From NCBI RefSeq assembly GCF_036669915.1, contig NC_089317.1:5454411-5518410 (forward strand): a stretch of 64,000 nt of DNA, in the 5' to 3' direction. Position 1 is the first letter of the stretch; each line of letters opens with the position of its first letter. The DNA is from Pocillopora verrucosa (lineage: Eukaryota > Cnidaria > Anthozoa > Scleractinia > Pocilloporidae). Below the pieces are notes generated by a model. That model had not been told where the DNA came from. It did no database searches and worked only from the letters and a program-made list of their open reading frames with translations. The translations under genes were made by a program, and so were the position numbers. Positions 10,561 through 64,000 of the stretch are shown piece by piece.

Positions 10561-10586
10561 TTTTGGACATCTATCAATCCTTGAGG

Positions 10587-19859: not shown

Positions 19860-22204
<2,345 letters not shown>

Positions 22205-23639: not shown

Positions 23640-23906
23640 TCATTATTTGGATCTTCTACAAAAAAGAACTCCCAGTCGCCAATTCCAGCCTAAATGAAAA
23701 ACTCTCTTCCTGATTGTAAAAAAAGTGAATTCACCATTTGAAAGATCTGCTCCCATGTTGGTTGCCTCTGAGGTGTACGAGATGGCAGCTTGCTTCTCCT
23801 CGAGATCTTTATGCTGTCCTTCGTTTCCACATCGTTTGGTAATCTTTCTTCCAAGGAACATCGACTCAATCTTTTTAAAGTAGGAGATCATGATACTTCG
23901 GTAGTC
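23640..23906 (-). pseudogene. MGN-family exon 2, class A, broken copy
   Basis: After an acceptor (CTTTTAAG) the minus strand starts D-Y-R-S and has FLGRKITKRCGNEGQHKDLE, clearly the class-A exon of 45529-45101. It has lost the K-T-T-L-K-F-L-Q segment, and further on a base change or deletion shifts the frame so that the core GDWE-FFSE is read out of frame (visible as NWRLGVLF in the ORF). No exon 1 is found upstream on this strand. Pseudogene. Confidence 0.7.
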
Positions 23907-24039
23907 CTTAAAAGGAAAAATGAATGGAATGTCATTACTGTATGTGATCCAAAAGGAAGCATCATATCGCTAGTCAGTGAATCAGTATTGAAGAAGTGGG
24001 CAGCATAACCTTACCTCGAACTCCGAGGAACACCTCCCC

Positions 24040-24590
24040 CAACCCCCCTCACCCTGAGTCTGCTGTGGATGTCAACCACAGAAAAATAGCGATATAATAC
24101 GTATTTCAAACATTATTTTCTACACCCGTTTTCAGGCTCTCTGCAATAAAAAATTGGCAATTTTCACCCAAAAACTATGCTAGCAGGATAGATTTAGTGA
24201 GTTCGCTTCCTCCGTTTATCATTTGGAGATGATATGTCAATTTGGTATTGCTGCAATCACCTATCTGCTGTGACCAACTTCAAACAGTCGTCTAATTGTG
24301 CCTTCAGAATGAGCGGCGCACTACCAACACCTTCGCAATGACAACTGATTGATTTTTCAATCCTCATCTTCAAAAATTGTCATAATAACTCATAAGCAAT
24401 CTCGAAGTATTTCACGTTTTATAAACAACTTTTAGTGTTTTTGCGGTTTTGGATGATTTCTTCTGCGGTTTTGCGAGTTCGAATAGACCCCAATGCCCTC
24501 CTCTATTTAGTATCTGGAGCAAATATCCCTTTTAAATTTAAATAGGGACGTCTTTAGTCGGCACTATTTGTAAGACTCGAGGCATCAGTT
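24040..24590. repeat. Spacer between class-A and class-B copies (block S, copy 1)
   Basis: Shared with 45680-46010 and 59870-60340: ATTTTCTACACCCGTTTTCA, GCTAGCAGGATAGATTTAGT, CCTCCGTTTATCATTTGGAG and AGAATGAGCGGCGCACTACC. Its fixed position shows that the A-spacer-B arrangement was duplicated as a unit. Confidence 0.65.
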
Positions 24591-24622
24591 GAGTGAGTTT
24601 TAAGAGTTTCTTCCTCCGTAAC

Positions 24623-25093
24623 CTAAAGAGGTGTACTAACATTGGACGTGGGTTCCTGAACTTCACAGGTCAGGGCTAATGGTCCACGAACGTCGGTATT
24701 TGGTGACTGTGACCACCAAGACAAAAGGTTTCTGAAATAGGAATTGCAGTCTTTACTGCTTGAAAACTGTTTGGGGCCCTCACGAACACAGTGGCCATGT
24801 ACAACATCCTTTGCGTCCTCTGAAAAGAAAAACTCCCAATCTCCATTTCCAGCTTGAATGATAAACTCTTTCCCTGGCTGCGATATAATGAAGGCAGCGT
24901 TTGTTAGATCAGCGCACATGTCATTTGCGTTCGAGATGAATGAGATGGCAGCTCGCAGAAATTTTAAGGTTGTCTGATCCTCTTCATTGAGATTTCCATG
25001 CTGTTCTTCGATTCCGCATCGCTTTACGATCTATTTTCCGAGAACTGTTGATAATATTTTATCAACTCTAAAAATCATTTTGCTTGGGTAATC
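24623..25093 (-). pseudogene. MGN-family exon 2, class B, with a nonsense codon
   Basis: After the acceptor TTCCAG the frame starts DYPSKM and follows the class-B exon of 60920-60384 closely. The codon for Glu in L-G-K-E-I-V is TAG here (25033-25031), an in-frame stop soon after the start. The downstream part stays open, with ADLTNAAFIISQPGKEF and GDWEFFFSEDAKD. The C-terminus ends early, at S-N-V-S-T-P-L. No exon 1 is found upstream. A likely pseudogene that decayed recently. Confidence 0.75.
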
Positions 25094-26309
25094 CTGGAAT
25101 GTAAAAAGCGAATAAAAAATGCTTCTAGTAGCTTGCCAGATTCTCAGGAAATTCTGACGCCATCTTCCCCCAGCTTTCTTTTTTTTGTAATATGTTTGCA
25201 CTCATTTATATTTAATAATCGATCCGAAATTTCTTGGAAATGCAGCTAAACCTCTCTAGTAAACAATAATTATGGCAGATGAAGGCATTAAGATTAGCCT
25301 GTATGTACATTTTCAAAAGCAGAAAAATGTTCATATCTATTAATAAGCTGTTTGCTTAGTGCATGTTTCATGTGACAAACCCTTAAAATGTTGGTTTTCA
25401 CGCCTTCCCAAAGTTTGTTTAAGGCAGGTGTTCCCTCTGGCGAGATCAATTTCGTTTATAACATAGCGCGTAAATTTCAATTGCGCGAGCGTGCTTCACA
25501 TTCCTATGGTGCACGCTCATGACGTCAGCAAACAAACCCCTCGAGAAAAAAAAATTTCCATCGGTTACGCCTCGAGCAACTCTTACGCATCTTTCGTGCT
25601 CTCCAAACTTCCCGCGTACTTCATATCTCGATGGACGTACGCTTACGTATAAACCAATTGTTAAGTATACAAGTGCAATGTGTGAAGAAACATTGCCAGC
25701 CCAATCGAGGCAAAATAGACTTAAGAGCGTGTCCACGAGAGCACCGGGCAGTCGTGCTTCATGCCATCTCACCGATTTCAATGAAACTTTGCCAGTTTGA
25801 AGGGTCTAGCCCAAAACTAAAAAAGACAAACTGTTTTCTGTTTTGTTTTTTTCCGGGGGGGAGATAGACCACCCCCCCCCGGTTTTTTCTTGGTCTTCAC
25901 CAAGGAAATCGCTTCAAAATAGGTAAAATGTATGAAGCTCTCACTGTGATGGTATTTAACCAATTATTCTGAGCGTTTGCACACATATTTTTCCATCCTT
26001 AGTTAATGTCCGCCGCAAGTATCAGTCAATTTGATTGACGGCTTGTCAATCAACACTAATCTTGATTCCCCTTTATAATCCATCATGTCATCTCTGAAAA
26101 TCATCAAAAAAAGATCTGGGCGCTACCGCATTTTTGTCTTGGATGCCTTTTAAAATCTGCGACTGTGACAAGTTTCTCTCAACTACACCTGTCACGCACC
26201 TCTTGCTTTAGGCGGTCACTTGACCGAATAAACCTACATTTTTTGGCTCTTTATACAAGATGATTGATCAAGAAAGGTGAAAAATGTGAAAAACTTTCGA
26301 GATTTTTTG
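25094..26309. other. No gene supported; partial repeat
   Basis: Bases 25387-25460 and 25672-25710 match 38815-38950 and are split here by a ~210-bp insertion. A G7/C10 fold-back lies at 25852-25882. Open frames at 25446-25867 overlap on both strands and are not conserved in the other copy, so I do not call them. Confidence 0.4.
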
Positions 26310-30349: not shown

Positions 30350-30933
30350 AATTATGACTTTCTAAGAACCTAACTAGGGGGAGTGGGAGCGCTCGCTTCC
30401 TCGCATGCAGTTGTCGCCTGAGTTCTACTCCCGATTCTGTCGGTACACGTGAGTTGATTTGATTGAGGTTTTTCAGTTTTTCTTTTGCTCTCATGATTTT
30501 TCCTCCATTGATGATTAAATCAATATCATTTTAGGATTGTAAAGAAGACCTAAGAATTCCTGTGGAAACAATTACCTCTCTTCCTCTTGGAGATGAGGTC
30601 GAAAATATGCAAGAAAAGGACGTCTTAGTGAACACGACTGAACAAGTATCAGATTTTTAATCCATTTCATACTTGTTGCAAAAGAAGATGGAGCTGATTT
30701 TGGAAATGCCGCTTTCATATTTAACCCATCCAGGCAGGCAGTTTGTTGTCATGGCAGGAAAGGGTGACTAGGAGTATTACTTTTTCGAGGATGACATCGG
30801 CAACATAACCGGTCGATGTGTTCGCAAACCCTGGCTAAGGTACCTTTGGAACAAAATCACATCCGCTTTTGTTCGTATCACCACGTTTTTGTCTGTTGCT
30901 GGAGTAGCCCTTGTGGCCTTAAAGTCTGCTTAA
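30350..30933 (+). pseudogene. MGN-family exon 2, plus class, broken copy with intron end
   Basis: Bases 30350-30534 match the intron ends at 42597-42767 and 63700-63875 (GGGAGTGGGAGCGCTCGCTT and TTCTACTCCCGATTCTGTCG). Exon 2 starts at 30535 after TTTTAG with D-C-K-E-D-L-R-I and P-L-G-D-E-V-E. A single-base change in length near 30610 shifts the frame. The tryptophan codon in the GDWE core is TAG (near 30770). The coding end (A-L-K-S-A-stop, 30933) matches the intact copy. No exon 1 is present. Pseudogene. Confidence 0.75.
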
Positions 30934-32225
30934 GAGTAATCTTGGAGAGCTAAATATAGGAGTTATGTCTCATTTAGTTATACATGTTAGAGCGGAAAAT
31001 ACACAAGCTAAAAATACTAGTTTAATTAATTTCTTTGCAATACGCAGAGCGGAAGTTGCCTTCTTAGTTCCGGATTGTTACGTTTGGAAAGCCGCTCTTG
31101 TAGATTAAATTATTGAATACTGATATTAAATACAGGGATATTTTGGACGCGACCTCGCTTTGAATAGGCCTCCGTGGAAAAAGAGAGTGTTATGAAGTGT
31201 TACGTTTCAAGGATTCACGATCGATTTCAGTGTTGTTTTTCTCCTCTAGTTGTGCAATTACTCGAACATGAAACTTTGTTTCTCGACTGGTCGTGTTGTG
31301 TACTTGACTTAATTTTGAGTTTTTGAAAAATCCAGTCGTTGAGTCTTATCAGATTCAGAAGCCCGCAAGGTCGAACTGGTAATTTTATCGTTTAATATAG
31401 TTTGTGCTGACTATTTTTGAGAATGATGTTCGTCGGTGTTCATGTTTGGATGTGCTGGATGGACTTGTATAAAAAATGCATTTCACCAGTTTGAACAAGA
31501 GATTTAACTCTGCAAAGACAGTCAGCTCATTACCCACAAGCCCACTAATAGGGTAATTAAGAGCGTGTACTAGGGTGAGTAAAAGAGAGACAAGTTAGTT
31601 AGGCATAGAAAGTAAAATACAGTAGAGGAGAACAAAGAGTCTTGGTGTCTCCTGATTGTGTTGGTCTTCTCAGAAGCTAGTTTTCCCCGTCATTGCATCT
31701 TTACAGAAGGTTAAACAATGGAAAACTGACAAAGTTACTCGGACACCCAACAACGAGAATGTTGCCAAAGTCGAAATAAAAGTGAAGAAAGTCTTTAAGC
31801 AAAAGGAGAGGCGTAAACATATTTTTATATTGTTTACTCCACTTTATTTGATTATTAATCGCGAGAAATGTATGGAAAATCCCTGCATGCAATGATGCAT
31901 GGTTCATATCTTTTTCTTACTTAACCCTTTAACTCCCGTGAGTGACCAAGAGAGAATTTCTCCTCACCAAATCAATACAATATCAAACAGACAAGTGATG
32001 AGAAAAAAAATATTTTAGCTAGGGGATTATTAGTTGATTCAGTACCAAATTCTAAGAACTAACATCATAAGAATTGTATGGCAGACACTAAGGAGAATTA
32101 CTAATGAGATCTCGGGAGTGAAATGGCTAAGGGAAACACTGAAGTACGGAGGCATCAAAAAATTGTTTCAGTTGATTTCCTAACCCTTTTTTACCTATTC
32201 TGTTCTTTTGATTTTATTTTTGATA
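30934..32225. repeat. 3' flank shared with 43182-44520
   Basis: Long, ordered matches to the flank of the intact plus-class gene, including TTTTGGACGCGACCTCGCTT, CTCTGCAAAGACAGTCAGCT and CTTAACCCTTTAACTCCC. Part is also found at 58600-58880. No coding frame is kept. Confidence 0.7.
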
Positions 32226-32410
32226 AATCAACAAACGTAAAGTTACTGTGATAGCTGGAGATTCAGTTAAAAAAAAAAACGTGCACATATCAATCAAACG
32301 GTGGTGGAGTGTTTGGTGAAAATTCACACATCATGGCGAGAGAAGTTTTACGAATTTGGACATACCCACGTCAAATTATTCCTTAACTTAACAAGCATGC
32401 TTTTGGATTA
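32226..32410 (+). pseudogene. Second exon-like module (YIKKRKV type), degenerate copy
   Basis: Related to 44523-44705. It has lost the frame early (the AGATTCAGTT region contains an extra GCTG) but keeps V-E-C-L-V-K-I-H, then W-R-E-K-F-Y-E-F-G-H-T-H-V-K. See the 44523 entry. Confidence 0.45.
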
Positions 32411-32439
32411 CATATCAATATCACAAGTAAAGTGTAAGA

Positions 32440-32880
32440 CTTCTGGCCGTAAGGTTTTGGACTGGAAAGTTGTTTATTATGTTGAAGAGTCAGAGTACTC
32501 CCGAATCGAAAAGATAGATAAACGTTTTAAAAAAAGTTTTAAACTTCTTGGTTTATCGATAAAAAGCCATTTATTGTCCTAGCTGTCTGCTCTCTCTCAA
32601 ATATCTTAAGTTTAAGTCTACTCTCAAATTTTGTTGACTTGGCAAGGCATTACTTGTGAATAAAATCGATACACCTTTCGTGGGAAAGGCAAAAGATTAC
32701 CAGCCAGAGGCTATGGATATGTGTCTAACAGCGGGATAAAATTGAATAAATTTTGATACGTAACAAACTCAAATTGCCTGATAGATTATGGAGTTGTTTG
32801 TCACCCATAATATCAAGCTAGTAACAAATTTTTTTCATCTTTTTCTCCGTCGAGATATAGCAGGACAAAGATTATTCTAG
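32440..32880. repeat. Block-R spacer, copy 2
   Basis: Matches 23200-23640, 44725-45100 and 58975-59440. It again lies just 3' of a class-A minus-strand copy. Confidence 0.55.
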
Positions 32881-33231
32881 GCAGCAGACGGCAGGGCCAG
32901 CAAACCATTTATTCATTCTGGTGTTGTTCTGGGTCTACCGTCTCGAATAACAGGGCCAGATGTTCTGTCAGGGGATCTGCAACTATACCAGAAACCTCGG
33001 GAAGCCTGCTTGGGACCCTTATGAATACAGTGGCCGTGAACTGTAATTTTTAGATCTTCTGAAAAAAGATCTCCCAGTCGTCATTTCCAGTCTGAATGAC
33101 AAAGTCTCTTCCTGGTTGTGAAAAAATGAATGCAGCATTTGAAAGATCTGCTCCCATGTTGATTGCCTCTGAGATATACGAGATGGAAGCTTGCAAAAAT
33201 TGCAAAAAAAGATCATGTTTCTTGGGTAATC
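32881..33231 (-). pseudogene. MGN-family exon 2, class A, broken copy
   Basis: After the acceptor TTTTTAAG the frame starts D-Y-P-R, but the sequence then jumps into the L-Q-A-S-I-S segment, a deletion of about 30 codons. Further on a one-base loss shifts the frame before the core, where the intact gene has GDWEFFFSED. The end retains AVHGHCIHKGPKQ-like DNA in another frame. Pseudogene. Confidence 0.65.
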
Positions 33232-33249
33232 CTTAAAAAGAAAATAAAT

Positions 33250-34589
33250 GGAATGTCATTGTATGTGATCCAAAAGGAAGCATTATATTGCTATCATCAT
33301 CCTGATGGTCAGTAACCAAGAGCTGGGCGGCGTGACCTTACCTCGAAATTCGAAGAATGCCTCCCCCTTTTACGAAATCGGTCCATCAAAAATCTATGTA
33401 AATTAGTTGAATGTGTGTTCACAGATGATCAAGAAAATAGAGAATAGGATACTTCCAAAGTGAGAGAGATAGTTGGGTTTTAAGGGAACAAATTAGGCCT
33501 GTGTATGAACCTGTATTAATCGGCATCTTATTCAGCGCCAATTATCAAAGACAATTGAGGGCCAGTTGTCTTTGGCTGTGGAATTTTAGTTATTTGATTA
33601 GCAAGCGAATGTCACCCTTGCTTTCAATGGTTATGAGGGGAAACCCCTTCCACGAAATCAGCTCAGCACAATCTTCTACAAATAGTTCCTCTGGAATTGC
33701 TCTCAATAGGTGTGCAGACAATAATTATACGCTCTTTGCCTTTGTTCGATTATAATTTGAGAGTGCCATAATTATTAATTTTTAGTTCCTTAATTATATT
33801 TCAGTAGTTCTGCTTTGAATGAGCGTTCAGTACAAGCAGGTGGAGGGGACTCACTAAGGAGTGATCGACCACGTCTGCTTAATATAGATGAACACTAAAT
33901 ATAGGCCTTGTGGAAATTTCGGTACTTTGACAACCGACCGCTAAAAAACAGAGCGACCAAGTAATACGGTGCCGCTTAGTACAGGCTTAATTTGTTCCCT
34001 AGATACCTCTCTTGCCCCTGGAAATCGATTTTTGTTCAATAACGAAGTAGCAGAGTACTCTAAATTTCTTACACAGGCGTGATTTAGGAGGAGGAGCGCG
34101 AAAAAGTCGGCAGTAAATTGATTGTTGCCATAAGTGATAGGGTTTTAAAATATCCAGAGGCAGCTGTGAACTGTGCGAGGAGAAAGTTTGTTTGAAAAGA
34201 CTTGACCTCGTCAATATAGTTTGCATTTTTTTTGTGTGTAATGAACCATTCCTTTAGCATTTCCGCCTCATTGTAATGTACAAACTCCGACATTCAGGAG
34301 ATTAAGTTTGGTAGGTCCTTTTTAAATGAAATGTCCACTTTTAAATGCAGGCTTTACTTCCTTCAGTGGTTTTATAGTTACTTCGCCAACACAGCCATCA
34401 CGTTGTCGAAAAGGGTAATGATTTTTATTCTACCTTGTGCCATAGGTCAATAACTTTGTCACCGCAAACCGCTTTTTTCTATCACGCTGAAAATTATGTC
34501 AAAAGACGTCTTTATTTTTCTATCTGTGAAGGTTTGTAAGATATACATGCTCAGCTGTTGGTCCTAGCACTTCCAGACCATCTCCGTTG
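33250..34589. other. No gene seen
   Basis: The first 100 bases continue the class-A upstream flank (as at 23920-24010 and 45545-45660). The rest is unique AT-rich DNA. Confidence 0.35.
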
Positions 34590-36384
34590 CAAACTGCCAT
34601 GTTCAAGACCCAGCAATCCTCTGCATCCCTCAACTACCAATCAGAGAGGAGCTTGATGAACCACCTATTATCGAGGAGACTGTTAAAGCCATAGACCCGC
34701 TCAAAATTGAAAAGCAGCGGGATTCGATGGAATTCCAGCTGAGATCTGGAAGCATCGAGGTTCTACACTACACTGCAAGCTCCATGAACTCCTCGTCTGC
34801 TGCTGGGAACAGGGCAAGCTACCACAAGATCTTCGAGACGCAGTCATCATCACCCTGTACAAGAACTAGGGAGAACAATTTGACTTTTCCAACTATCGGG
34901 GGATCACCCTTTTGGCCTTCGCCCGTAAAGTCCTTGCCAGGATACTGCTCAACAGGCTTGTGCCATCCATCGCCAAAGAACATCTTCCGAAAGTCATTGT
35001 GGCTTCAGAGCCAACAGAGGCACAACGGACATGGTTTTCGTTCTCCGTCAACTCCAGGAGAAATGCCGTGAACAAAACAAGGGTCTGTATGCAACATTTG
35101 TCGACCTAACAAAAGCCTTCTACACTGTCAGCAGGTAAGGTCTGTGGTAGCTTCTTGAGCGTCTCGGCTGTCTTGGAAAATTCCTCAACATGGTGATCCA
35201 ATGCACGAAGACCAACACGGTCAAATCAGACTCAACCGAGACCCGTCAGATCCCTTCCCCATCGTTAATGGCGTGAAGCAGGGTTGTGTCCTGGCACAAA
35301 CCTTCTTCAGCATCCTTTTCAGCATGATGCTTAAGCAAGCCACTGTAGACCTAGATGATGAGGATGGCGTCTACGCCAGGTACCACCTGGAAGGTAGCCT
35401 GTACAGCGCTTGCAGGCCCATACTAAGACCCAGGAAAGGCTGGTGCGGGAGCTCCTCTTCGCATACAACGCTGCCCTCGTTACCCACGCAGAAGGAGCTA
35501 CACAGGGAATCACAACCTGTTTTGCAGGCACTGTTCAGTTCTTTGGCCTCGAGGTCAGCCTCAAGAAGACAGAGGTCCTTCACCAGCCCGCGCTCCAGGA
35601 GGAATACTACCCGCCCACCAAAACCATCGGCGAAACAGAGCTGAAATCAGTTCAGCAATTCACCTAAGTGGGCTGCACTATCTTATCCGACGCTAAGATC
35701 GACAAGGAAATTGACAACAGACTGGCAAAGGCTAACAGCGCCTTCGGTAGACTCTACAAGTGTGTGTGGAACAATAAGAGCTTGAAATGCAAGACCAAGA
35801 TCAGTGTTTACAGAGCTTCTGTACTCTCTACTTTGCTCTACGGCGTTTCCATCAGCATTGCCTTCATACCATCCTCAACATCCACTGGAGCGACTTTGTC
35901 ACCAATGTCGAGGTCCTCGAACAGGCTGAAGTTCCCAGCATTGAAGCCATACTGTCAAAATACCAGCTCCAGGCTGGGCGTGTGACCCGGATGGAAGAAC
36001 ATCGCCTTCCCAAGATCTTCATGTGTGACGCACCGTCAACTGGCTATCGAGACAGAGGGGCACCAAAGAATAGATACAAGGACTGCCTCAAGAATTCACT
36101 CAAGTCCTGCAACATCGACCCCCATCAGTTGACAATTATCACTGTCGAGCGGGACGGCTGGCGCCACACAGTCCACACAGCTGTAAAAAACTTTGAAACC
36201 ATACGCCATGAAGCCCTCAAAGAAAAACGTCAGCGGAGAAATACCAGAGCTGCTGCTGCCTCAGAGAACCAAAACCCTGATCAGAACCTCAAATGCTGCT
36301 ACTACACTCGAACCTACCTGTCCCGGATTGGCCTCGTCAGCCATGAGCGGGCCTACAGTGGACGTGGACGCCCTTCCTTTTAAA
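34590..36384 (+). mobile_element. Dead non-LTR retrotransposon (LINE), reverse transcriptase and C-terminal part
   Basis: Broken frames give reverse transcriptase blocks in order: N-Y-R-G-I-T-L-L, F-V-D-L-T-K-A-F, then VKQGCVLAQTFFSILFS. At the catalytic box, where F-A-D-D is expected, it reads FAYNAALVTHAEG, so the two aspartates are lost. Then come G-L-E-V-S-L-K-K-T-E and, after a stop, an ANSAFGRLYKCVW and K-T-K-I-S-V-Y-R-A thumb-like part. The end has a cysteine/histidine segment leading to SRIGLVSHERA. At least four frameshifts or stops are seen. The endonuclease domain is not visible, so the copy is 5' truncated. The clade is uncertain. GC content is higher than around it. Confidence 0.8.
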
Positions 36385-38064: not shown

Positions 38065-41000
38065 TTATGAGTGATTTTTACGAGCTTCTTCTTCCGTCAC
38101 CTCCGGAAGTGTAACCTTGAACGTGGGTTCCTGAGCCTCATAGGTCAGCGCTAACGGACCATTGGTAAAACGAACGGCGGTTTTTGGTGACGGGCACCAC
38201 CATGAAACCACCCAGAAAATTCTTAGACAGAAGTAAAATAATTTCCAAATACCCCTTGAAAACCGTTTAGGACCCTTGCGAACACAGCGGCCATGTACAA
38301 CATCGTTTGCGTCCTCTGAAAAGAAAAACTCCCAATCTCCATTTCCAGCTTGAATGATAAACTCTTTCCCTGGCTGCGATATAATGAAGGCAGCGTTTGT
38401 TAGATCAGCGCACATTTTATTTGCGTTCGAAATGAATGAGATGGCAGCTCGCAGAAATTTTAAGGTTGTCTGGTCATCTTCACTGAGATTTCCATGCTGA
38501 CCTTCGGTTCCGCATCGCTTTACGATCTCTTTTCCGAGAACTATAGATGATATTTTATCAACTCTAAAGATCATGTTGCTTGGGTAATCCTAGAAAGTAA
38601 AAAGCGAATAAAAATGCTTTTAGCAGCCAGCAAGATTCTCAGGAAATTCTCACGCCATTTTTTCCCTCAGCTTTCTGTTTGTTCTAATATGCTTGCTCTC
38701 ATTAATATTTAAAAATCGCTCCAAACTCAAGCTCAAAGTGTGAGCACTTTGAAATGATGTTGAGATCTATTATTAAGCTGTTTGCTTAGTGCTTGGGTCG
38801 CGTAACAAACCCTTAAATTGTTGGTTTTTACGTCTTCCCAAAGTTTCTCTAAGGCAGGTGGTCCTTCTGGCGAGATCGATTTCGTATAAACAAGTGCAAA
38901 ATGTGAACATGAAAGAAGAAACATTTCCAGCCCAATCGAGGCAAAATATATTTAAGCTTATCCTAAGAGTGAAGCTGGGATGTGCGGCTCAAGCTTCAAA
39001 TTTCCTCGACTAAAATGATATACATTCTTGTGTAGTGATAACCGTATGTAAAACACCACCTCTTGGATTATATTAGTCGTAAGTTTGACAACGATGTCAT
39101 TCAAGTTTTGAGCAAAACATAGGTTTGGTACACACATTAAGCGCAAAAAGGTCAACCATTTCATGGATAACTCAAATCAATTCAAATTCATCGAACGTCT
39201 ATCAATGTTTTGAACATATGACCTGTCACTCGACAACGTTTCACAGGCCTATTGAGTTCCGTTTTACCCAAGAGTATCCTTAGGTTCCGCCCAAATTTGA
39301 GAGCAACATTTTAGAGGTGAGTTTCAAGTCACTTTTTGATTCTTGACTCTAGGAACCGTTTTCGAAAAAATTGCGGATTCATTAGCCGTATTCATGGAAT
39401 ACATGTGGACGAAAGGTCAAACCACAGCGAGAAAATTGCGGATCGAAAAATTTCCGGATACGTGTGGACGGCGCCTAAGTCCGTCTGTTAGATTTAATAC
39501 GAGTCGAATTTACGTAATGTCCATGTAAAATGCGAGCTCTATTCAGTTTTAAATTTTGAAAGTTTTAATCGAATGCGACTCCAGTCTTGACCAGAATTAA
39601 TGCATGATTCATTTGTTACCACACTTACCCAGATATCCACAGTTGCAGATTCAAGGACATGCGCAATGAAAACGCACGAAAACGAAAGCAGTAGGGCAGT
39701 ATTCATTAATCGTCACTGCCTAAAATGAGAGTTTATTTATTTATTTTTCTCTCTTTCTCTTTCTTTCTTTCTTCGTACTTTCTCTTCCTTTTTCTATTTC
39801 ATTTTGTAAGAGATATTCGGTTTTTGAAGATAAAGAAGCATTTGGTTGGAAAGAAACGATTCACTCGTTTGCCAAGATTGATTTCGGAATATAACAAATC
39901 ACATTCATGAGCTGGAGTTGGATACAGACAGACTTAATGAGAAAAAAATCGGGTGCTTTAACTGTAACTTTATCGCGACAGTTCTCTTCAACAAAAACAA
40001 TATTTATTTTGCAAAAGTAAGCCTACAAAAGTCATTTTCTTGATGCCAAGACGATTTGGTTGAATGTTTTCTCATTTCAACAGAGCCGTCTTTAGTCGAA
40101 ATTACATTTGGCGCATATCCAGAATGCAATGTTTAAAACAAGCTTGAGTCAAAAATGATCGTAGCAGAAGTCATGTGCATGTGCTTATTCGCACACGCAC
40201 ATTTTGGTAAAAGTTAAGAGTTGAGGTCGTAACAGAGTACTCAGCAGCTACTCGGTGCATTTCTAAAACTAACAAGATCTAGTAATTCAAACCGCGTAAG
40301 GAATCAAAAATATAACAATACTGGCCCTCAGACCTCTCGCGAGTGTTTTAAAATTGAAGAGCTGAGATATCGCAGTGATTATATCTCGATCGTTTGCGAT
40401 CGTTGGAGACCCGAACAAGTTTGATTCCTACAATGAACTTGGTATTACACGTATGTCGAGTGTGTTGCCCTTTTTTCGCTTTGCCCCGATGTTTATGCAC
40501 GATTATTTAAAATTTCAGGGGTATCCGGAAGAAAAAAAATCAGAGTGGAGAGAATAAGCCCATATTTTCTTGGAAAAAAGATTGAGTCTCAGTGAATTCG
40601 AACAGATGGAGGTCAAATTTTTGAAAACGGCCATCCATTTCGTTGCACTACTATCTTTGGGATGAGGTCAAATATTTTTCTAAAATCCCCCAACACTTGG
40701 GAAACGCACTGTCAATCGTCAATGGAGGTAAATATTTAAAGAACGCCTTGGAAAATCCTTGAACTGTTTAAGTAAGTAGCTGCATACATAGACGGATAAA
40801 CATTTCTCATTAGCATATGAATACATACTTGTCGCTCTTCTTTAACGTAACCTGACATCATTCTAATGAAATATAGAACATTTCTTGTAGAAATAATTGA
40901 ACATTAAAACGCACTCAGTTTGCCTTAAAATGTCGGAATTTTGAAATTTTCCGGAGGGGAAATGCGTTTCGCAACCCCCCATCCCCTTACCTCCTTTACT

Positions 41001-44705: not shown

Positions 44706-44724
44706 AATATCAATATCACAGGTA

Positions 44725-50479: not shown

Positions 50480-50509
50480 CGATATCATTCTCGACTTTTT
50501 ATTTCCCAT
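50480..50509 (-). pseudogene. Orphan MGN-family exon 1 (minus class)
   Basis: Encodes MGNKKSRMIS with donor GTAAGG, so the myristoylation pattern is intact. No class-A or class-B exon 2 follows on this strand before the next gene's exon 1 at 46512. It is either a remnant or an alternative first exon that could splice to 45529. The second idea would need RNA evidence. Confidence 0.6.
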
Positions 50510-50932
50510 GGTTTCAAAGGGCAAACGTTCTCGGGGCACTATTCAACACCAGTTGATAAAAGTGTGTGAGAAGCAGTATCGAATTTTCATTTTCACTTTC
50601 GTGTAGAGCTGGGGGTTTTTCCCTTTAGCTTAAGGGCGTAGAATACAATTAATCCTTAATCATACAGATGTCAGTGTTGCCTGGTGAGGATGCATAATGT
50701 AAATGATCTAGTTGGAAAAAGCTAGGGAAAAAATCCTACAGAATTCAAAAGCGAGAGAAAGGCCAGAAAGATGCTTCGTTGCCATAGAGATGTAAACAAA
50801 GCAGTCAAAACAGTGCCAGGGAAAAACCCATGGAATCCGAGAGAAGGAAAAAGGGCAGTCGACAGCTCAGATTTCCACACCTTTCGTCACACAATTTCAA
50901 GCACCGTTTTCACCACGCCAAAACGACACATC
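50510..50932. promoter_or_regulatory. Shared divergent promoter region 3, with three GGG...CC(C) palindromes
   Basis: 423 bp between two head-to-head exon 1 sequences. Sites: GGGTTTTTCCC (50613-50623), GGGAAAAAATCC (50725-50736) and GGGAAAAACCC (50819-50829). Confidence 0.5.
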
Positions 50933-50968
50933 ATGGGAAACGCAATTGGCAATAGTAGAATGGATCCT
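50933..50968 (+). pseudogene. Orphan MGN-family exon 1 (plus class)
   Basis: Encodes MGNAIGNSRMDP with an intact donor GTAAGT. I find no plus-strand exon 2 before the next exon 1 remnant at 58493. Probably left after loss of its second exon. Confidence 0.6.
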
Positions 50969-53767: not shown

Positions 53768-54070
53768 TCATGAGGCTGTTAAGGCTAAAACTACAAGAGT
53801 CACAACATATAGACTGATAACCTTCTTGAATTCGTCCCAAGTGTAATGAAGTGTTGGCTTGCGCAAGCAACGACCATGTATGTTTCCATTGAGAAGCTGA
53901 GAAAAGTAAAACTGGCATTCCTCTTTTTCCATGAAGTCGATTGCTGCTCGCAGGAAATTAAGGGTTACCTTCCTCGTTTCATCGAGGTAAGGATGGCTTT
54001 CTTCATCACCACACTTCTGCGCAAGGATTTTGTCAAGACGTACAACAGTAATTTCTGGAACATTTATTGC
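53768..54070 (-). CDS. Divergent MGN-family exon 2 lacking the core block
   Basis: From about 54070 the minus strand reads V-P-E-I-T-V-V-R-L-D-K-I, then K-C-G-D-E-E-S-H, LNFLRAAIDFMEKEECQFYF and H-G-R-C-L-R-K-P-T-L-H-Y-T-W, ending in a hydrophobic helix and L-A-L-T-A-S. The start is set by an acceptor-like CAGAG in phase 0. About 29 residues between the A-A-I helix and the F-S-E region are missing without breaking the frame, including the A-D-x-x-N-A and G-D-W-E parts. The open frame of about 100 codons suggests it has been under constraint or lost the block recently. No exon 1 is found. It is the most divergent copy here; the C-terminus is like the plus class although it lies on the minus strand. 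Confidence 0.5.
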   Translation of the reverse strand, partial: AINVPEITVVRLDKILAQKCGDEESHPYLDETRKVTLNFLRAAIDFMEKEECQFYFSQLLNGNIHGRCLRKPTLHYTWDEFKKVISLYVVTLVVLALTAS

Positions 54071-56356
54071 CTCTGCTCCAGAGAATTGACCAAAAAGAAG
54101 GGAACGCGATATTACAAAATGATCCACACTTTGCCCATGAGTTTCCACCCTCTAAACAAACGTATTGGATACTTCTCAACTGTTCTTTTTCACAAAAGCA
54201 ACCAGTCGCCCGTTTGTCCGTTGTTAAAAGGGAAGAGAGAGGAAAAAGATACAGCAAGCAAAAAGCAGGATCCTAACGGGGAGAAAACGCTACTGTTTTC
54301 CCTATTCGGCTCTTCAATTATGAATGAAACTCTAGTCGGCTGTATTATGTCTGCCTCCAAAGATTATCATTTAAGTATTACTCTAAAAGCAGTGAATCAT
54401 GTTCGATTCCTATTTTATCATCGTTCAGAGAATTATTTGCAGCGTAACCGTAAGTTTCGAGAACGTTAGAGCATTAGAAGCCACCGCTTCTTAAATAAAC
54501 TAATGTAACGAAATGAATCATATTGAAATTACCTATAAATTGTTTTCCAAATTTCACGCCATGTATCTGTAATCGTACAACCACGAATGATTACTCGATT
54601 CAAGTTTTCATGATTATTTTGCGGTGACAGTGTACCAGCCTCCCCTTGAAGAAAAATTTTACTACAATAGCGTCCTAAACTAATGGAGGTGAGAAAAACG
54701 ATTCTGGAGGGAGGAGGGGTTGGGCAGTAAAAGAAAAAGAGCAAGGTGTCTTGCCCGCGCTGCTCTTCCGCTACACAAGAGTCTGGTCGAATCCATGACC
54801 TGAAAAATCCATGATCATGCAGACAAACCGTATCCGTAAGCCTAAAACAAACATCCGTCGTTGTTCTCGATTTGGACAAAGGATGGCATGTTTAACCATT
54901 GCTATCCGGCGGATAAGTGATCGCAAAACGTATAGCGGTATCCACCGTATAGAGTTTTATCCAGTAGATAGCGTTATCCAACCTTCGAACAACTTAGGCC
55001 TGGAATTTATATTCAAAAGAAACCAATGGCAAGCTCTCCTCTCTTCCATCTTCTATATCTCCCTACCCGCAAGCGAGGAAAAATCTTCCTGATCGAAATT
55101 ATCACGAATTAGCCTTTGCTCAAATAGTCCTTCTTCAAAAAAGATTTGACTAATGTACTTAGAAACTAACTATACCCATGGATGAACTGATGGCTTTTAC
55201 TACACAAGATATTGGCGTATTGAAGTGTTACCTTTGAAGAAAGGCAGAAATCACTACTTGCACATGAAATTTAGCACTGAACACATAGATTATGTTGAGA
55301 TGTATTAACCTTTCTCATTCCTTGGCTACTTTTGAGGACACTCGAGGAACTTCCATCGGTGTTTACTATGCACGTAGTACTAAACCACTATTAAAAAGTC
55401 TAAACCTGGATGGAAAACTGGCTTTTTTTTCGAAGGATGCGAAGATATTTCGATCCATCAACATTTACGTCAGACTTAAATGGCGATCTCTGATCTCTCT
55501 CAAGGCATTTCGCACCGGAAAAAAGTTTCCCCTCAAACTTTGCCTTATAAACTATATTTGGTAGCAAGTAAATAAAACCACACTAGTTTCTGGAAATACG
55601 TTAAAAGAAAATTTTTAGAGCTCTTAATAGTCAAAGCTGCTTAAGGCCCTTTTTTGACCTCTTGCGACATTAAAATTTTCAAAAGTAGCCTGGTCCTCCT
55701 ATCACACCGCATGCAGCAAAAAATATTTTGTATTTTTGAACTGTGTGATATGTTAGGTGTATAAAAAGAATTTCAATTTTGATATTCCTTCATTCAGGGG
55801 TTTGTCATAATTTATTTAAAAACACTCGTTAAACAGCTTTCTGAAATTGGTCAAAAGTACTCTTTCTTTCTTGGTTGATATTGATCAAGTCCAGACCTGA
55901 CCATTGGAAACTCTGCTTGATTTCTTCTGTTAAGATGTTTGGCTGCAGAAAAATATGAAAACATCTTGCACTTATTAATTTTCCTCGCCGTGGTGACTTC
56001 AAACTTTTAGCGATTTTGTTAGCGTGAGAGCCGATTAAGCAAATTAGTTCACTGAGCAAACTCCGACCGTTTTATATAAGTTCTGACAGCTTATGCTATC
56101 CAAACCTGTATGAACATTTCAAAACCAAACTACAGGATTCTGTTTAGTGTAACAGGCGATAACAGCACATACTAAAATACACCGTGATCAGTGATACGTC
56201 ACGTAATTCAATTGTGTAATTATCCTGAATTGCTTCTCCTTTCTAAATAAACCAGCGATAACATCGTTTTTTGGATCAAAATTCTAGTCGGCAGGAATAA
56301 GAGAAATGTTGTCTGCACACCTATCTTTAAGACAGTTTCTATTCAGAACTTTAGCA
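54071..56356. other. No gene supported
   Basis: The 207-codon plus-strand frame at 53846-54469 is antisense to the divergent MGN exon and has no relatives. Around 54900-54980, GCTATCCGGCGGATAAG and TATCCACCGTATAGAG form a weak inverted repeat. Confidence 0.35.
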
Positions 56357-57823: not shown

Positions 57824-57959
57824 AACATTTGATATATGAAAAATTCTTTCTTTTTGATCCAATTTTTGTTTAAACACAAAATTCAATTATAAAATTTAAA
57901 ACACACCATAATATTTCAAAGGTTTTTATATATAGTTTCTTATGTGAATACATAATTGT

Positions 57960-58492
57960 CACTCCTTTAAACGCAACCTGACATCATTTTGATGAAATAT
58001 AGAACATTGCAAAAATAACGAAACATTAAAACACAGTCAGTTTGCCTTAAAATCTTGGAAGTCGTATTTGTAAGGTCTTTGAAGTTCGAATTTTTCCGGA
58101 GGGGAAATGTGTTCGCAACCCCGAACATTCCATGTTGGGAATTTTCCCTTACGCTTGAATTTTGCCATAAGATATATAAATCTTTGATTGTCAGATTACA
58201 CATATTTTTTATCTTCTTTACGTGGTTGGGAATGCCACATCACGGTGAGTGATCAAAACAAGATTTTCCTTGGTCAATCAAAATTGAAAGCAATTATGAT
58301 AGGGAAAAACCCCGATAACCACAAAAAGGACAAAATGGCCAGCTGGCTCGGTAGTGTTAGGGTTGTCTGAATTGACTCCATGATCTGCAGACAGCTTCTC
58401 CCATCAAAAAAGCTTCTGGACAAAAAGCTACAAATCGTGATTCTCGGAGGGACTTAGCCAAGCTATTTGTCTTGAGTTAGCTGGACAAGGTT
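57960..58492. promoter_or_regulatory. Truncated divergent promoter block 4
   Basis: Matches 61560-62841 but with a deletion of about 800 bases that removed the minus-strand exon 1. It keeps GGGAATTTTCCC (58137-58148) and GGGAAAAACCC (58302-58312). Confidence 0.45.
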
Positions 58493-58528
58493 ATGGGAAA
58501 TTTCATTGGCAACGCTCGAATATTACCA
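58493..58528 (+). pseudogene. MGN-family exon 1 remnant with a lost splice donor
   Basis: Encodes MGNFIGNARILP exactly as at 42287, but the following bases are GAAATG instead of GTAAGT, so the donor GT is lost. The matching exon 2 is deleted: sequence passes directly to the 3'-flank repeat at 58590. Confidence 0.75.
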
Positions 58529-58559
58529 GAAATGATAACTCTGACTTTAGCTCAAGAGA

Positions 58560-59440
58560 TCAAACTGTCTTTGCGAAACTGCGACCAGGACAAAATGTCC
58601 TCTTACCAAATCAATACAATATCAAACAGGCAAGTGATGAGAATAAAGAAAAATATCAGCTAAGGGATTATTAGTTGATTCATACCAAATTCTCAGAGCT
58701 AACATCATAAGAGTTGTTTGGCAGACAGCAAGGAGAGTAACTAATGAGATCTTGGGAATGAAAGGGTTAAGGGAAACACTGAAGTACCGAGGAATCCCAA
58801 ACAAAAAATTGTTTCAGTTGATTTCCTAGCCTTTGTTACCTATTCTGTTCTTTTGATTTTGTTTTTGATTTTATTTTTGGTATAACAGGAAACGCAAAGT
58901 TACTATGATAGAAATTCAGTTAAATTATTCCCTAACTTAACACGCATATTATTAGATTACATATCAATATCACAGGTGAAGAGTAAGACTTCTGGCCTTA
59001 AGGTTTTGGGCTGGAAAGTTGTTTATTATTATGTTGAAGAGACAGAGTACTCCCCGAATCGAAAAGATAGATACAAGTTTAAAGGAAAGCTTTAGACTGC
59101 TAAAAGGGCATTAATTGTGAATAAAATGAATACACCTTTCATGGGAAAGGCGAAGGATTACTAGCCAAAGGCTAGATATGGCTAGATAGGTATGGATATG
59201 TTCCTGACAACGGTATTAAATTTAATAAATCTTGACATGTAACAAACTCAAATTGTCTGATAGATTATGGAGTTATTTGTCACCCATAGTATCAAGCTAG
59301 TAACAAAATCTTCCTATTTCTTGATTTTCATCTTTTTCTCCGTCGAGATGTAGCAGGACAGAGATTTTTCTAAGCGGCAGACGGCAAACCATTTATTCGT
59401 TCTGGTGCTTTTCTGGGTCTACCGTTTCGATTAGCAGGGC
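58560..59440. repeat. 3'-flank and block-R repeats, copy 4
   Basis: Bases 58600-58890 match 44270-44525; 58887-58940 is the start of the YIKKRKV module cut by a deletion; 58975-59440 is block R. Confidence 0.6.
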
Positions 59441-59725
59441 CAGATGTACTGTCAGGGAACTGCATTTTTAGATCTTATAAAAAAAGAACTCCAAGTCGCC
59501 AATTCCAGCCTAAATGAAAAACTCTCCTCCTGGTTGTAAAAAAATGAATTCACCATTTGAAAGATCTGCTCCCATGTTGGTTGCCTCTGTGGTGTACGAG
59601 ATGGTAGCTTGCTTTTCCTCGAGATCATTATGCTTTCCTTCGTCTCCACATCGTTTGGTAATCTTTCTTCCGAGGAACATCCACCCAATCTCTTTAACGT
59701 AGGAGATCATGGTACTTGGATTATC
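59440..59725 (-). pseudogene. MGN-family exon 2, class A, broken copy
   Basis: After the acceptor TTTTTCAG it starts D-N-P-S-T-M-I and has FLGRKITKRCGDEGKHNDLE. It shares the deletion of the K-T-T-L-K-F-L segment and the frame break before the core with the copy at 23640, so these two derive from one already broken ancestor. Confidence 0.7.
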
Positions 59726-59869
59726 CTGAAAAAGAAAAATGAATGGAATGTCATTGTAGGCGATCTATAGGGAAGCATTTTATCGCTATCATCATTGTCA
59801 TCATCTTGAAGGTCAGTATTTAAGAACCGGGCAGCATAACCTTACCTCAAATTCCGAGGAACACCTCCC

Positions 59870-60340
59870 CCCACCCCCCCTACCCCCGAGTCTGCTGTGG
59901 ATTTCAATCACAATAAAATAGTGATATAATACATATTTCAAATCATCATTTTCTAAACCCGTTTTCAGGCCCTCTGCAATCATAAATTAGAAATTTTGAC
60001 CCAAAACTATGCTAGCAGGATAGATTTAGTAAGTTCGCTTCCTCCGTTTATCATTTGGAGATATGTCAATTTGGCATAGCTGCAATTACCTCTCTGCTGT
60101 GGCCAGCTTCAAACTTGCGTCTGATTGTGCCTTTAGAATGAGCGGCGCATTGCCAACACCTTCGCAATGACAACTGATTGATTTTTCAATCTTCATCTTC
60201 AAAAATTGTCCTAATAGCTAATTAGCAATCACGAGGTATTTCACGTTTTATAACCAATTTTTTGAAGTTTTGCAGTTTTGGAGGATTTTTTACTACGGTT
60301 TTGCGAGTTCTAATAGACCCCAATGCCCCCCTCTATTTAA
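59870..60340. repeat. Block S spacer, copy 3
   Basis: Matches 24040-24560 in order and separates the broken class-A from the class-B exon, as at 24 kb. Confidence 0.65.
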
Positions 60341-60383
60341 TATCTAAAGCAAATATCTCTTTTGAATGTAAATGGGGACGTCT

Positions 60384-62091
60384 TTAGTTGGCACTAATCA
60401 TAAGACTTAAGGCATCAGTTGAGTAAGTTTTACAAGTTTCTTCGTCCGTCACCTTAGGAGGTGTAACATTGGACGTGGGTTCCTGAACTTCACAGGTCAG
60501 GGCTAATGGTCCACGAACGACGGTATTTGGTGACTGTGACCACCAAGAGAAAAGGTTTCTGAAATAGGAATTGCAGTCTTTTTTGCTTGAAAACTGTTTG
60601 GGACCCTCACGAACACAGCGGCCATGTACAACATCCTTTGCGTCCTCTGAAAAGAAAAACTCCCAATCTCCATTTCCAGCTTGAATGATAAACTCTTTCC
60701 CTGGCTGCGATATAATGAAGGCAGCGTTTGTTAGATCAGCGCACATGTCATTTGCGTTCGAGATGAATGAGATAGCAGCACGCAGAAACTTTAAGGTTGT
60801 CTGGTCATCTTCATTGAGATTTCCATGCTGTCCTTCGATTCCGCATCGCTTTACGATCTCTTTTCCGAGAACTGTTGATGATATTTTATCAACTCTAACA
60901 ATCATGTTGCTTGGGTAATCCTGAAATGTAAAAAGCGAATAAAAATGCTTTTAGTAGCTTGCAAGATTCTCAGGAAACTCTGACGCCATCTTCCCCCAGC
61001 TTTACAACCCTTAGGATTATGTCAGGATTATAATCGGTCGATGTGACCGCAAGCCTTTCAAGTACTGTTTGAGACGAGATCAAATTCACTTTTTTATAAA
61101 ATCCCCGAGTACTTGTCATCTACACTTTCAATTGTCGGAGGTGTTACATCTTTAAAGAATGCTTTGGGGCTCTCTTGAACTGTTAAAGTAAGTAGCTGCA
61201 TACATAGACGGATAAACATTTCTCATAAGTTCGTCGGAGTCGTTAATTGAACTATATAGCTATTTAATGATACACACTGCCACGAACTGCTCTAATTGCG
61301 AGAAACAGTAGTTTGTGGCCCGTAAAAAGATGTATACGAACCGCCATGACACTGAAAGCTTGCATGTCGGGCTTGACACTGATGACCATTTAATGAAAAA
61401 AGCTTATGAATTTCGATGCAAGGCTCAGCATTCTGCGAGATAGCATCCCTGAAAATTGTTTCTTGTTGTAATTTTTGTTTAAACACAAAATTCAAACATA
61501 ACATTTAAAATGCAGCATGATATTTCAAAGGTTTTCAAATACATTTATGTGAATACATAATCATCACTCCTTTAACTAAACTGGCATCATTTTGATGAAA
61601 TATAGAATATTTTTTGTAAAAATAATGAAACATCAAAAGACGCTCTCAGTTTGCCTTAAAATTTCAGATGTCGTATTTCTAAGGTTTTTGAATATCGAAA
61701 TTTTCCGAAAGAGAAATGTGTTTCCCTTCCCCTGCCTCCCTTACTAACAACCGTCTTCAGAGACTACTCGAATACATTTAAACCAAATATTAGATTCACC
61801 AGTAGATTCGCTATTCGTCAGTAAAATGTCAGATTATGTCATATGCGACGGTAACTTTAACAATTTGCCTTTACATTTTCACAGTTTATATGCTGTAATC
61901 TCGCTTTTAAAGGTCCTGTTGTGATAAATCTTGCTCTAACGATGTGTTAGTAACTATGTGTCCTCTTGTAGTCCGAAAAAATATGAAAAACACGGCCTTT
62001 GAAGTCAATACAATCGTAAGTCTGTAACCTCTAAGTCTGATTAAGATGCAAATTTTCTTACCAATGTCATTCTTGAATTGTTACTTCCCAT
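60384..62091 (-). CDS. MGN-family gene, class B, intact (188 aa)
   Basis: Exon 1 is 62091-62062 (MGSNNSRMTL, donor GTAAGA); exon 2 is 60920-60384 after acceptor TTTCAG, starting D-Y-P-S-N. Both ends are phase 0. It matches the 184-aa class-B gene closely: Gly2/Ser6/Arg7, EIVKRCGIEGQHGNLNEDD, LKFLRAAISFI, ADLTNAAFIISQPGKEF, G-D-W-E-F-F-F-S-E-D-A-K and H-G-R-C-V-R-E-G-P-K. The longer C-terminus has ALTCEVQEPTSNVTPPKV, then a charged end. It is head-to-head with 62842 across 750 bp. The 24-kb class-B pseudogene is its closest relative by eye. Function is unknown. Confidence 0.78.
61021..61150 (+). pseudogene. MGN-family plus-class exon 2 relic, antisense in the class-B intron
   Basis: Encodes I-I-G-R-C-D-R-K-P-F-K-Y, matching I-T-G-R-C-V-R-R-P-W-L-M-Y, then decays. 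It corresponds in position to 40517-40765 inside the other class-B gene, and the following DNA (GTAGCTGCATACATAGACGG) is the same in both. Confidence 0.5.
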
Positions 62092-62841
62092 CGTCTTACT
62101 TTATTCCAGCTCGCTCAGGGAAGGAACAGGTTTACTAAATATTTAGTGGAAGACATTTCCCAATCTTGCCGCACAAGGCCGAGTAGTTTTTAAGTATAGA
62201 GCCGAATAAGTCGTTCGCTTTATTTATCGCTCGTTCGTTGCGGGGAATTTTCCCTAATGGAGAACCCGATATGGATTGATGAATACTATGTGTTCCTTGC
62301 ATAGAAGGGAAACCCCCCTGACAATGAGTCATCTTTTGTCCTTTGTTTCATTGGAGAACCCGCATTAGGGAAAAAACCCGAGAGATGCAGGCGCCGGAAG
62401 GCTCCTGCTTATGTTTCTTGATAGTTGCACCGAAGACTTTACATAGGAATTCTGACAGAAATTCATTTTAAGTTATGCGCTTTCCAAACGCCTCGAAAAT
62501 ATTTCATTAGCAGATTTTTTTTTCAAAATAAATTTATCACATGCTGGGAATTTTCCCTTACGCCTGAACTTTGACATTTTTTGTCTTCTTTGCGTGGTTA
62601 GGAATGCCACATGACAATAAGTCATCAAAACAAAATTTTCCATGGCCAATCAAAATTGAAAGCAATTATGATGGGGAAAAACCCTGATAACCACAAAAGA
62701 GGCAAACACGCTAGCTGCCTCAGTAGTGTTAAGGTTGTCTGACTTGACTCCATAAACTACGGACAGCTTCTCTCATCACAAAGTCGTGATTCTCGCAAGG
62801 ATTTGGCCGAGCTATTTGTCATGAGTTAACTGGACACGGCT
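62092..62841. promoter_or_regulatory. Shared divergent promoter region 5, with four GGG...CCC palindromes
   Basis: 750 bp between two ATGs. Sites: GGGAATTTTCCC (62243-62254 and 62546-62557), GGGAAAAAACCC (62368-62379) and GGGAAAAACCC (62674-62684). The layout is that of region 1 at 41536-42286. CCAAT occurs at 62646. Confidence 0.55.
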
Positions 62842-64000
62842 ATGGGAAATTTCTTTGGCAACGCTAGAATATTACCAGTAAGTATAACTCTGTCTTAGGC
62901 TTCGATCAAGAGATCAAACTTTAAATAATATATTGATGAAACTCAAAGAAATTTGTCCCTTTCGAATTGGATTTATCCTCTTCCGTAAGTTAAATTCTCC
63001 TCGTCTTTTCGAAACTGAGATTGATTTATAGAGGCCCAAAGAGATTTAAACTAAGCCCCATCGTCTCAATGAATCCTCGGTAGCTTTAGGTGACTTGGTC
63101 GATACGAGTTTCGATATTAAACTGTCGTCAATACCTTCCTGAAAGTGAAGGGAAGTTTTCCGTTTTACCAAGTTCATGCACTTAACATCACGTGCGATCG
63201 ATGCCAGATCCTTCGATTAAACTTGAATTCGTTACTGGTTGAGATTTCCAATGGGAGTTCGGCAACCGTCGACAGATTACCATAGGAAAAAATGCGATTT
63301 ATATAAAAACGAAAAAGTAGCTGGGAACTTGAAAAAATAATTCGAGAATTAGTTCAGAATTTTTACGTAAGACCTTCTTACGGTGCCTTCACCCTTTAAC
63401 TCCCAAGGTCTCATTAGTAATTTTCCTTACTGTATGCCAAACGATTCTCATTATGTTAGTTTGGAGAATTTGGTATGGAATCAATTTGTAATCATTCGAT
63501 TCATTCTCGTCACTTGTCTGCATGATACTGTATGGATATAGTAAGGAGAAATTCTGTCTTGGTCACTCATGGGAGTTAAAGGCTGAACCACGGAGCTGCG
63601 TTACAAGCCAGTCCAGCATACTTATACGATTCGCAATCCGCACTACCTTGAATATTCGTCGGAAACGTTCTAAGGGTTTGGGGGGGGGGAGGGGATAGGA
63701 GAGTTTCTAAGAACCTTGCTGAGGGGAGTGGGAGCGCTTGCCTACTCACATGTAGTTGTGGCCTGAGTTCTACTCCCGATTCTGTCGATACATGTGGATT
63801 GATTTAGTTGCGGGTTTTTTTTCTTTTGCTCTCGTCAACTTTCTCCCAATATTGATCACACCAATATCATTTTAGGACTATCCAGAAGACCTTAGAATTC
63901 ATGTGAAGAAAATAACCTCGACTCCTCTTGGAGATGAGATCGAAAAAATACGCAACAGGGGACGTCTCAGTGAACACGACCGAGCAAGTATCAAATTTCT
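62842..64000 (+). CDS. MGN-family gene, plus class (3' part beyond window)
   Basis: Exon 1 is 62842-62877 (MGNFFGNARILP, donor GTAAGT); exon 2 starts at 63876 after TTTTAG with D-Y-P-E-D and is open to the window edge. The visible part reads I-H-V-K-K-I-T-S-T-P-L-G-D-E-I-E and GRLSEHDRASIKF, nearly identical to the 42287 gene. The ~1-kb intron ends with the shared GGGAGTGGGAGCGCT segment. No defect is seen in the visible part. Confidence 0.75.

Follow-up and report, generated by a model that had tools for sequence, protein, structure and literature searches.

What could be the function of a cluster of small two-exon genes that match no recognised domain and crowd into one region of a coral genome? 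The question is raised by a 64,000-nucleotide stretch of Pocillopora verrucosa (assembly GCF_036669915.1, contig NC_089317.1, positions 5,454,411 to 5,518,410 of the forward strand; this whole stretch is referred to below as the window), in which an earlier note, made from the sequence alone, had described genes with a tiny first exon starting MG-N/S and a main exon with a conserved GDWE core. Our analysis adds to that description the head-to-head pairing of the genes, promoter elements shared by the pairs, a myristoylation-type start and a coral-wide range. Taken together, these features lead us to suggest, tentatively and with a little less than even confidence, that the family encodes Rel/NF-kappaB-inducible, membrane-tethered defence or stress effectors that would be co-expressed as pairs.

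A gene family arranged in head-to-head pairs

We located main exons by tblastn searches using the family cores, and first exons by scanning for short exons that start with MG and are followed by a phase-0 donor. In the window, the family amounts to five complete two-exon genes and a further gene that runs off the window edge, along with six main exons that have decayed and three first exons left stranded. The two methods together bear out the earlier count of at least five complete genes plus an edge-cut one, as well as the proposed gene structure: all five complete genes have a first exon of 10-16 codons, a phase-0 GT...AG intron of 445-2916 bp and a single main exon. The top match between different window copies reaches E 2e-110 (tblastn), and profile searches recovered 200 proteins at E<=0.01, so the resemblance is not due to chance; the existence of the family is almost certain.

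Eight first exons retain an intact donor, and all of them are arranged head-to-head, as four pairs whose members lie 0.4-0.75 kb apart, namely 41535(-)/42287(+), 46512(-)/47188(+), 50509(-)/50933(+) and 62091(-)/62842(+). Two of these pairs are complete, the 62091/62842 pair has its plus-strand gene cut by the window edge, and 50509/50933 is a relic without main exons. The minus-strand genes form type A, with an MG..SRM start and a KRCG stretch, and the plus-strand genes form type B, which is four residues shorter at the KRCG stretch and has a hydrophobic tail. The pairs at 41.5/42.3 and 62.1/62.8 kb are A1-B1 and the pair at 46.5/47.2 kb is A2-B2; judging from its first exons and promoter, the relic at 50.5/50.9 kb is probably A2-B2 as well.

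In the first A1-B1 pair, g38 (38065-41535, minus strand) consists of exon 1 at 41535-41506 (MGNNNSRMTL), an intron of 2916 bp, exon 2 at 38589-38068 and a stop codon at 38067-38065, and g42 (42287-43181, plus strand) of exon 1 at 42287-42322 (MGNFIGNARILP) and exon 2 at 42768-43178, followed by the stop. The A2-B2 pair is formed by g45 (45101-46512, minus strand; exon 1 at 46512-46483, MGSNKSRMTS; exon 2 at 45529-45104, then the stop) and g48 (47188-48535, plus strand; exon 1 at 47188-47235, MGNTLDKALGNRRMAS, with an additional ATG immediately upstream, giving ATGATG; exon 2 at 48125-48532, then the stop). In the second A1-B1 pair, g60 (60384-62091, minus strand; exon 1 at 62091-62062, MGSNNSRMTL; exon 2 at 60920-60387, then the stop) faces the edge-cut gene (62842-64000, plus strand), whose exon 1 lies at 62842-62877 (MGNFFGNARILP) and whose exon 2 starts at 63876; the latter gene is 90% identical to g42 over 40 residues. 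The two splice junctions given in the earlier note, 42322/42768 and 46483/45529, proved exact in their coordinates. Its motif blocks fared unevenly: ADxxNA-FI and GDWE-xx-FSE recur in all five genes, but the other two blocks hold only loosely, PG(R/K)EF being confined to the three A genes (g48 reads SGREF and g42 PGRQF) and C-V-R/H-x-P to the two B genes, with the A genes lacking it.

The surviving proteins look constrained, and positive selection overall is not indicated. Of ten gene pairs, nine yielded a ratio of nonsynonymous to synonymous substitution rates (dN/dS), all within 0.11-0.61 (g48-g60 was not computable), the recent pair g38-g60 standing at 0.61 (dS 0.19); these values are rough because dS exceeds 1 in eight of the nine.

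Relatives across stony corals and support for splicing

Besides the 200 proteins at E<=0.01, the profile searches matched 221 proteins at E<=0.1 and, from a divergent seed, 143 at E<=10; the best 120 of 200, the best 120 of 221 and the best 120 of 143 were listed, making 204 distinct proteins in all. The 120th match from the divergent seed still stood at E 7e-35, and distant kin escape the word-based search that was used. Among the matches listed, 23 of the 204 are named to species, and all 23 come from stony corals of seven genera: Oculina (8), Acropora (7), Porites (3), Montipora (2), Desmophyllum (1), Stylophora (1) and Pocillopora (1). The seven genera cover both complex and robust corals, and the family is therefore probably older than the split between these two groups.

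The spliced form, in which an MG-N/S/G first exon is fused to the core, is present in 36 of the 204 listed proteins; six further proteins (P0033, P0052, P0065, P0086, P0101 and P0116) start with MG and another third residue and were left uncounted. Seventeen of the 36 are lgn entries (one of them also jgi), one is a jgi entry and 18 are ncbi entries, with none from ENA only; the ncbi entries are gene models, and the lgn entries we take to be short assembled read contigs and thus probably transcripts. In P0015, exon 1 of g48 is joined to an exon 2 that is 98% identical to that of g48 over 136 columns, which supports the junction 47235/48125; the remaining window junctions find support in spliced relatives, among them P0011 for g45 and P0023 and P0037 for g42. 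A two-core subfamily (P0121-P0144, 24 listed proteins of 239-257 residues) was also observed, with the double core present in all seven examples examined.

In a phylogenetic tree with several weak forks, g38 and g60 (A1) and g45 (A2) fall within a nine-row group that includes Oculina G029044 (99/94), g48 falls within an eight-row group together with named Pocillopora and Stylophora proteins (96/87), and g42 is separate, grouping with P0023, P0037 and the long-branched P0120. Database labels of the coral relatives read 'uncharacterized', 'hypothetical' or 'unnamed'. The description of the family as undescribed stands insofar as no paper naming it turned up (the literature searches yielded no paper with any of the seven locus names tried, or with GDWE together with cnidarian), but its proteins are already in public databases. 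Coral proteins at NCBI (Acropora digitifera LOC107333083, Stylophora pistillata LOC111318938 and Oculina patagonica LOC144664251) share the MG start and the same core; their listings give no function or domain, and this window alone showed the A/B pair together with its promoter. A further comparison is offered by a taxonomically restricted coral family that we take to be the SCRiPs. According to the accessible part of its report (PMC2652719), that family likewise consists of coral-restricted, small proteins, and its title calls it cysteine-rich, whereas the present family is not. More broadly, 192 orthogroups have been reported as expanded in corals (PMC10236652).

No convincing match to known domains or folds

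The earlier claim that the proteins contain no recognised domain was supported at the level of Pfam, NCBIfam, PDB sequences and folds. A Pfam scan of 104 members gave a best E of 0.0076, with no family matching more than one member (in a table without printed cut-offs), and the window exons and the double-core protein P0121 gave Pfam matches below the cut-off only. NCBIfam returned a single chance match for six members, and sequence searches of the PDB returned no match. The AlphaFold model of the core is confident (predicted local distance difference test (pLDDT) score 91, predicted template modelling (pTM) score 0.83), and fold searches yielded no convincing structural match for it; the match of human REDD1 (PDB 3lq9) to the family core, at 6-7% identity, lies within the stated noise of the tool. 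The profile and PDB checks for a known family led to uncharacterized coral proteins as relatives and to no clear known-family match. Pattern scans, with limited sensitivity, gave 45 matches in viral contigs (IMG/VR) and 101 in prokaryote genomes, none of them confirmed as a relative by tblastn, and a fold search of BFVD had a best E of 0.11, with nothing at E<=0.001.

Candidate Rel/NF-kappaB sites in the shared promoters

Alignment of the upstream regions revealed a GGGAAAAA-N-CCC-like element ahead of each start. The pattern GGG-W4-6-CCC occurs at 14 sites (28 strand counts) in the entire 64 kb, and all 14 lie inside five family promoters that sum to 2966 bp, or 4.6% of the window; with GGGAAAANNCC included, there are 15 merged sites, all 15 again inside family promoters. 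Under a first-order Markov model for each promoter, the observed count was reached in none of 2000 runs with either pattern. Specifically, the sites are found at 41687, 41812 and 41991 in the promoter between g38 and g42 (p1, 41536-42286), at 46791, 46905 and 47001 in that between g45 and g48 (p2, 46513-47187, with GGGAAAANNCC at 46648), and at 62243, 62368, 62546 and 62674 in that between g60 and the edge-cut gene (p4, 62092-62841). The relic pair (50480-50968, with promoter p3) has first exons at 50509-50480 (minus strand) and 50933-50968 (plus strand), donors present, and sites at 50613 and 50819, placed symmetrically so that for each of them the nearer ATG is 104 bp and the farther one 310 bp away. 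A decayed copy of the B1-side promoter (p5, 58131-58528, plus strand; the promoter proper, 58131-58492, was located by blastn) carries sites at 58137 and 58302 and is followed by exon 1 at 58493-58528, for which no minus-strand partner was found.

The GGG-W4-6-CCC sites resemble kappaB/Rel sites and are possible candidates for such a role. The NF-kappaB of Nematostella bound electrophoretic mobility shift assay probes containing GGGAAAGCCC, GGGAAACCCC and GGGGAACTCC (PMC10329013, in the part accessible); GGGAAACCCC is present at 62307, and together with GGGAAAACCC at 46791 it matches or nearly matches these bound sequences. The same source describes the promoter of Nematostella TRAF3, an NF-kappaB target, which likewise has several sites of the GGG...CC type in the 1 kb upstream. 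The coral promoters differ from it in that each is shared by two genes and in that their putative sites mostly measure 11-12 bp. Other promoter motifs include CCAAT (10 versus 4.5 expected) and TATAAA (0 versus 2.8 expected). The AP-1-like sequence TGAGTCA is found at 41769, 42063 and 62325, all in A1-B1 promoters, which is three of the nine occurrences in the window, versus 0.4 expected. Next to the kappaB-like site of 50509(-) lies a GAAAGTGAAAATGAAAA stretch that is partly retained at 46512(-); it is suggestive and is not claimed here as an element, GAAANNGAAA numbering only 3 versus 0.6 expected.

A myristoylation-type start and a recurrent tail motif

The PROSITE pattern PS00008 calls for Gly2 with permitted residues up to position 7, and it is fitted by 35 of the 36 exon-1-bearing proteins and by seven of the eight first exons of the window. 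Ser6 is present in 27 of the 36 starts, and in 23 it is combined with a basic residue at positions 7-9. By this pattern, the short N-terminus encoded by exon 1 is probably myristoylated. Src/MARCKS-type anchors join a myristoyl group to basic residues at the membrane, and the same combination of MG-x-x-x-S and a basic residue characterizes those 23 starts; the likeness is limited to the anchor, and Pfam gave neither a kinase nor a MARCKS match for the 104 members scanned. At the other end of the protein, an L-x-A-L-like motif occurs in 42 of 70 non-redundant C-terminal tails, compared with 11.7 in shuffles (before thinning, 116 of 186 versus 30.4, with usable tails in 186 of 209 proteins); it is only a lead because the pattern was written after the tails had been seen.

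A proposed function and what weighs against it

How might these features fit together? We envision a small, probably cytosolic product, built of the exon-1 N-terminus, a compact alpha/beta core encoded by exon 2 and a variable tail in which the L-x-A-L-like motif is often present. In this window, the A and B genes flank one promoter region rich in Rel/NF-kappaB-like sites, through which an immune or stress signal, acting via an NF-kappaB-type factor, would turn on both paired genes; expressed together, the A and B products would then reach membranes as a pair of effectors in defence or stress. Copy gain and decay would suit defence genes. Our data show the family, its gene structure and splicing, the pairing in this window, the clustering of the sites and the N-terminal pattern; myristoylation, the identity of the factor, inducibility, the joint action of the partners and the effector role are inferences. 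Our confidence falls from the Rel/NF-kappaB drive through myristoylation to the effector role. A more far-reaching version, which we regard as rather unlikely, would be an innate effector system specific to corals and built on a core of new fold. In it, two paralogous, myristoyl-anchored proteins, A and B, would be produced in step from a bidirectional NF-kappaB promoter and act together at membranes, perhaps as a heteromer, and whole A-B cassettes would be amplified and turned over during an arms race or as part of symbiont control. As background, NF-kappaB has a part in how cnidarians respond to pathogens and to heat (PMC13042239, accessible part), and IRF2 and NF-kappaB1 are among the markers of anemone immune cells (PMC13319465, accessible part). 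Lineage-specific genes that may be under NF-kappaB control are hard to name from sequence; if the proposal is true, it would provide a coral-specific effector family along with ready-made reporter promoters.

Several observations weigh against paired, NF-kappaB-driven effectors. The site motif was chosen after the alignment had been seen. The promoters are paralogous (p1 and p4 are 91% identical, p5 is about 78% identical to both, and p2 and p3 are partly 75-77% identical), so that p1/p4/p5 and p2/p3, being copies, represent about two independent promoter lineages rather than five. The canonical kappaB site is 10 bp long, shorter than most sites here, 13 of the 14 having five or six A/T between the triplets instead of four (eight have six). 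The pre-set consensus GGGRNNYYCC occurs at eight positions, of which four, including two that overlap, lie in the promoters of the four pairs, versus 0.3 expected; the consensus stands out only in p4 (8 of 2000 runs reach the count), is matched by 131 and 124 of 2000 runs in p1 and p2, respectively, and is lacking in p3 and p5. The AP-1-like TGACTCA is also enriched (3 versus 0.4 expected), only in the related p1 and p4, and the kappaB-like sites are therefore not the sole candidates; the IRF-type excess of GAAANNGAAA is not compelling. As for the proteins and their arrangement, g48 (ATGATG, Asp6) fails the myristoylation pattern, the selection of the 36 starts for N, S or G as their third residue biases them towards that pattern, and the pairing is known from this window alone.

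The long spacers, the modest enrichment of the pre-set consensus and the AP-1-like sites of p1 and p4 speak for the leading alternative, under which the promoter element is bound by a different factor (NFAT, AP-1 with an unknown partner or a zinc-finger protein) and the genes function in development, in symbiosis or in one particular cell type rather than in defence. We consider this alternative rather unlikely; against it, the sequences at 46791 and 62307 equal or come close to sequences in probes to which anemone NF-kappaB bound. A defence role would not follow even from true kappaB sites, because NF-kappaB also acts in stress and life-stage change, according to the accessible part of a 2026 review (PMC13042239).

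Block duplication, decay and the remaining alternatives

The earlier estimate of about ten broken or partial copies was a fair one, nine broken pieces having been counted. Two decayed main exons lie on the minus strand within 23541-25117, one A2-like at 23.6 kb and the other A1-like at 24.56-25.12 kb with two in-frame stops. Searches with tblastn placed a decayed B1-like main exon at 30526-30936 (plus strand) and decayed A2-like ones at 32880-33255 and 59480-59740 (both minus strand), and a divergent member at 53771-54151 (minus strand) is missing about 28 core residues, including GDWE. The stranded first exons are those at 50509(-), 50933(+) and 58493(+): main exons belonging to the first two were looked for nearby and none of their own was found, and the third has lost its donor GT.

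Self-comparison of the window shows that duplication proceeded as blocks, with 23231-25177 being 88.6% identical to 59044-61003, 30356-32547 81.7% identical to 42593-44846, and 41394-42419 90.9% identical to 61950-62974. The like-typed partners and the 91% identity of the two A1-B1 promoters are as expected if the pairs were duplicated as blocks. A second conserved, coding-like fragment on the plus strand (32283-32492, 44578-44790 and 58904-59044) was duplicated along with the blocks; it lies tail-to-tail with three of the four A2-type main exons, none being seen beside the one at 23.6 kb. Its copy at 44.6 kb has a stop, and the one at 32.3 kb is without a Pfam match above the cut-off.

The large duplicated blocks, the nine broken pieces and the strong promoter paralogy could also be explained if the head-to-head order and shared sites were a mere by-product of inverted and block duplication in an orphan family of fast turnover, whose genes would lack common regulation and play a mild or redundant part. 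Such a by-product appears improbable given a dN/dS below 1 in all nine computed pairs, even though dS exceeds 1 in eight of them. The relic promoters at 50.5 and 58.1 kb retain their sites, which is compatible with co-regulation and by-product alike. Finally, domestication of a virus or mobile-element gene, whose myristoylation-type N-terminus would serve as a membrane anchor in the manner of matrix proteins, is very improbable: MG starts with Ser6 and basic residues (23 of 36) and retroelement-like debris nearby at 34.6-36.4 kb (open reading frame (ORF) reading) would suit it, but the intron is conserved in the family, the alpha/beta core is unlike the known helical matrix proteins, and, at limited sensitivity, neither IMG/VR (pattern scan, no relative confirmed) nor BFVD (no fold match at E<=0.001) points to a viral source.

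Other features of the window

Elsewhere in the window, the ORFs of plus-strand regions 10461-12692 and 16115-18243 suggest two tandem copies of one large membrane-like protein with multiple spans, one being a single ORF of 743 residues and the other split over two; the pieces at 10461-12689 and 16115-17584 gave no Pfam match at E<=0.01. ORFs at 34568-36383 (plus strand) resemble reverse-transcriptase debris of a retroelement, with Pfam matches below the cut-off only. Above the Pfam cut-off are a QRICH1-domain ORF at 5943-6485 (plus strand) and an ABC-transporter ATPase ORF at 20476-20787 (minus strand). A tandem repeat at 22152-22535 has strands that translate as CWVLGVG and NTQHPTP.

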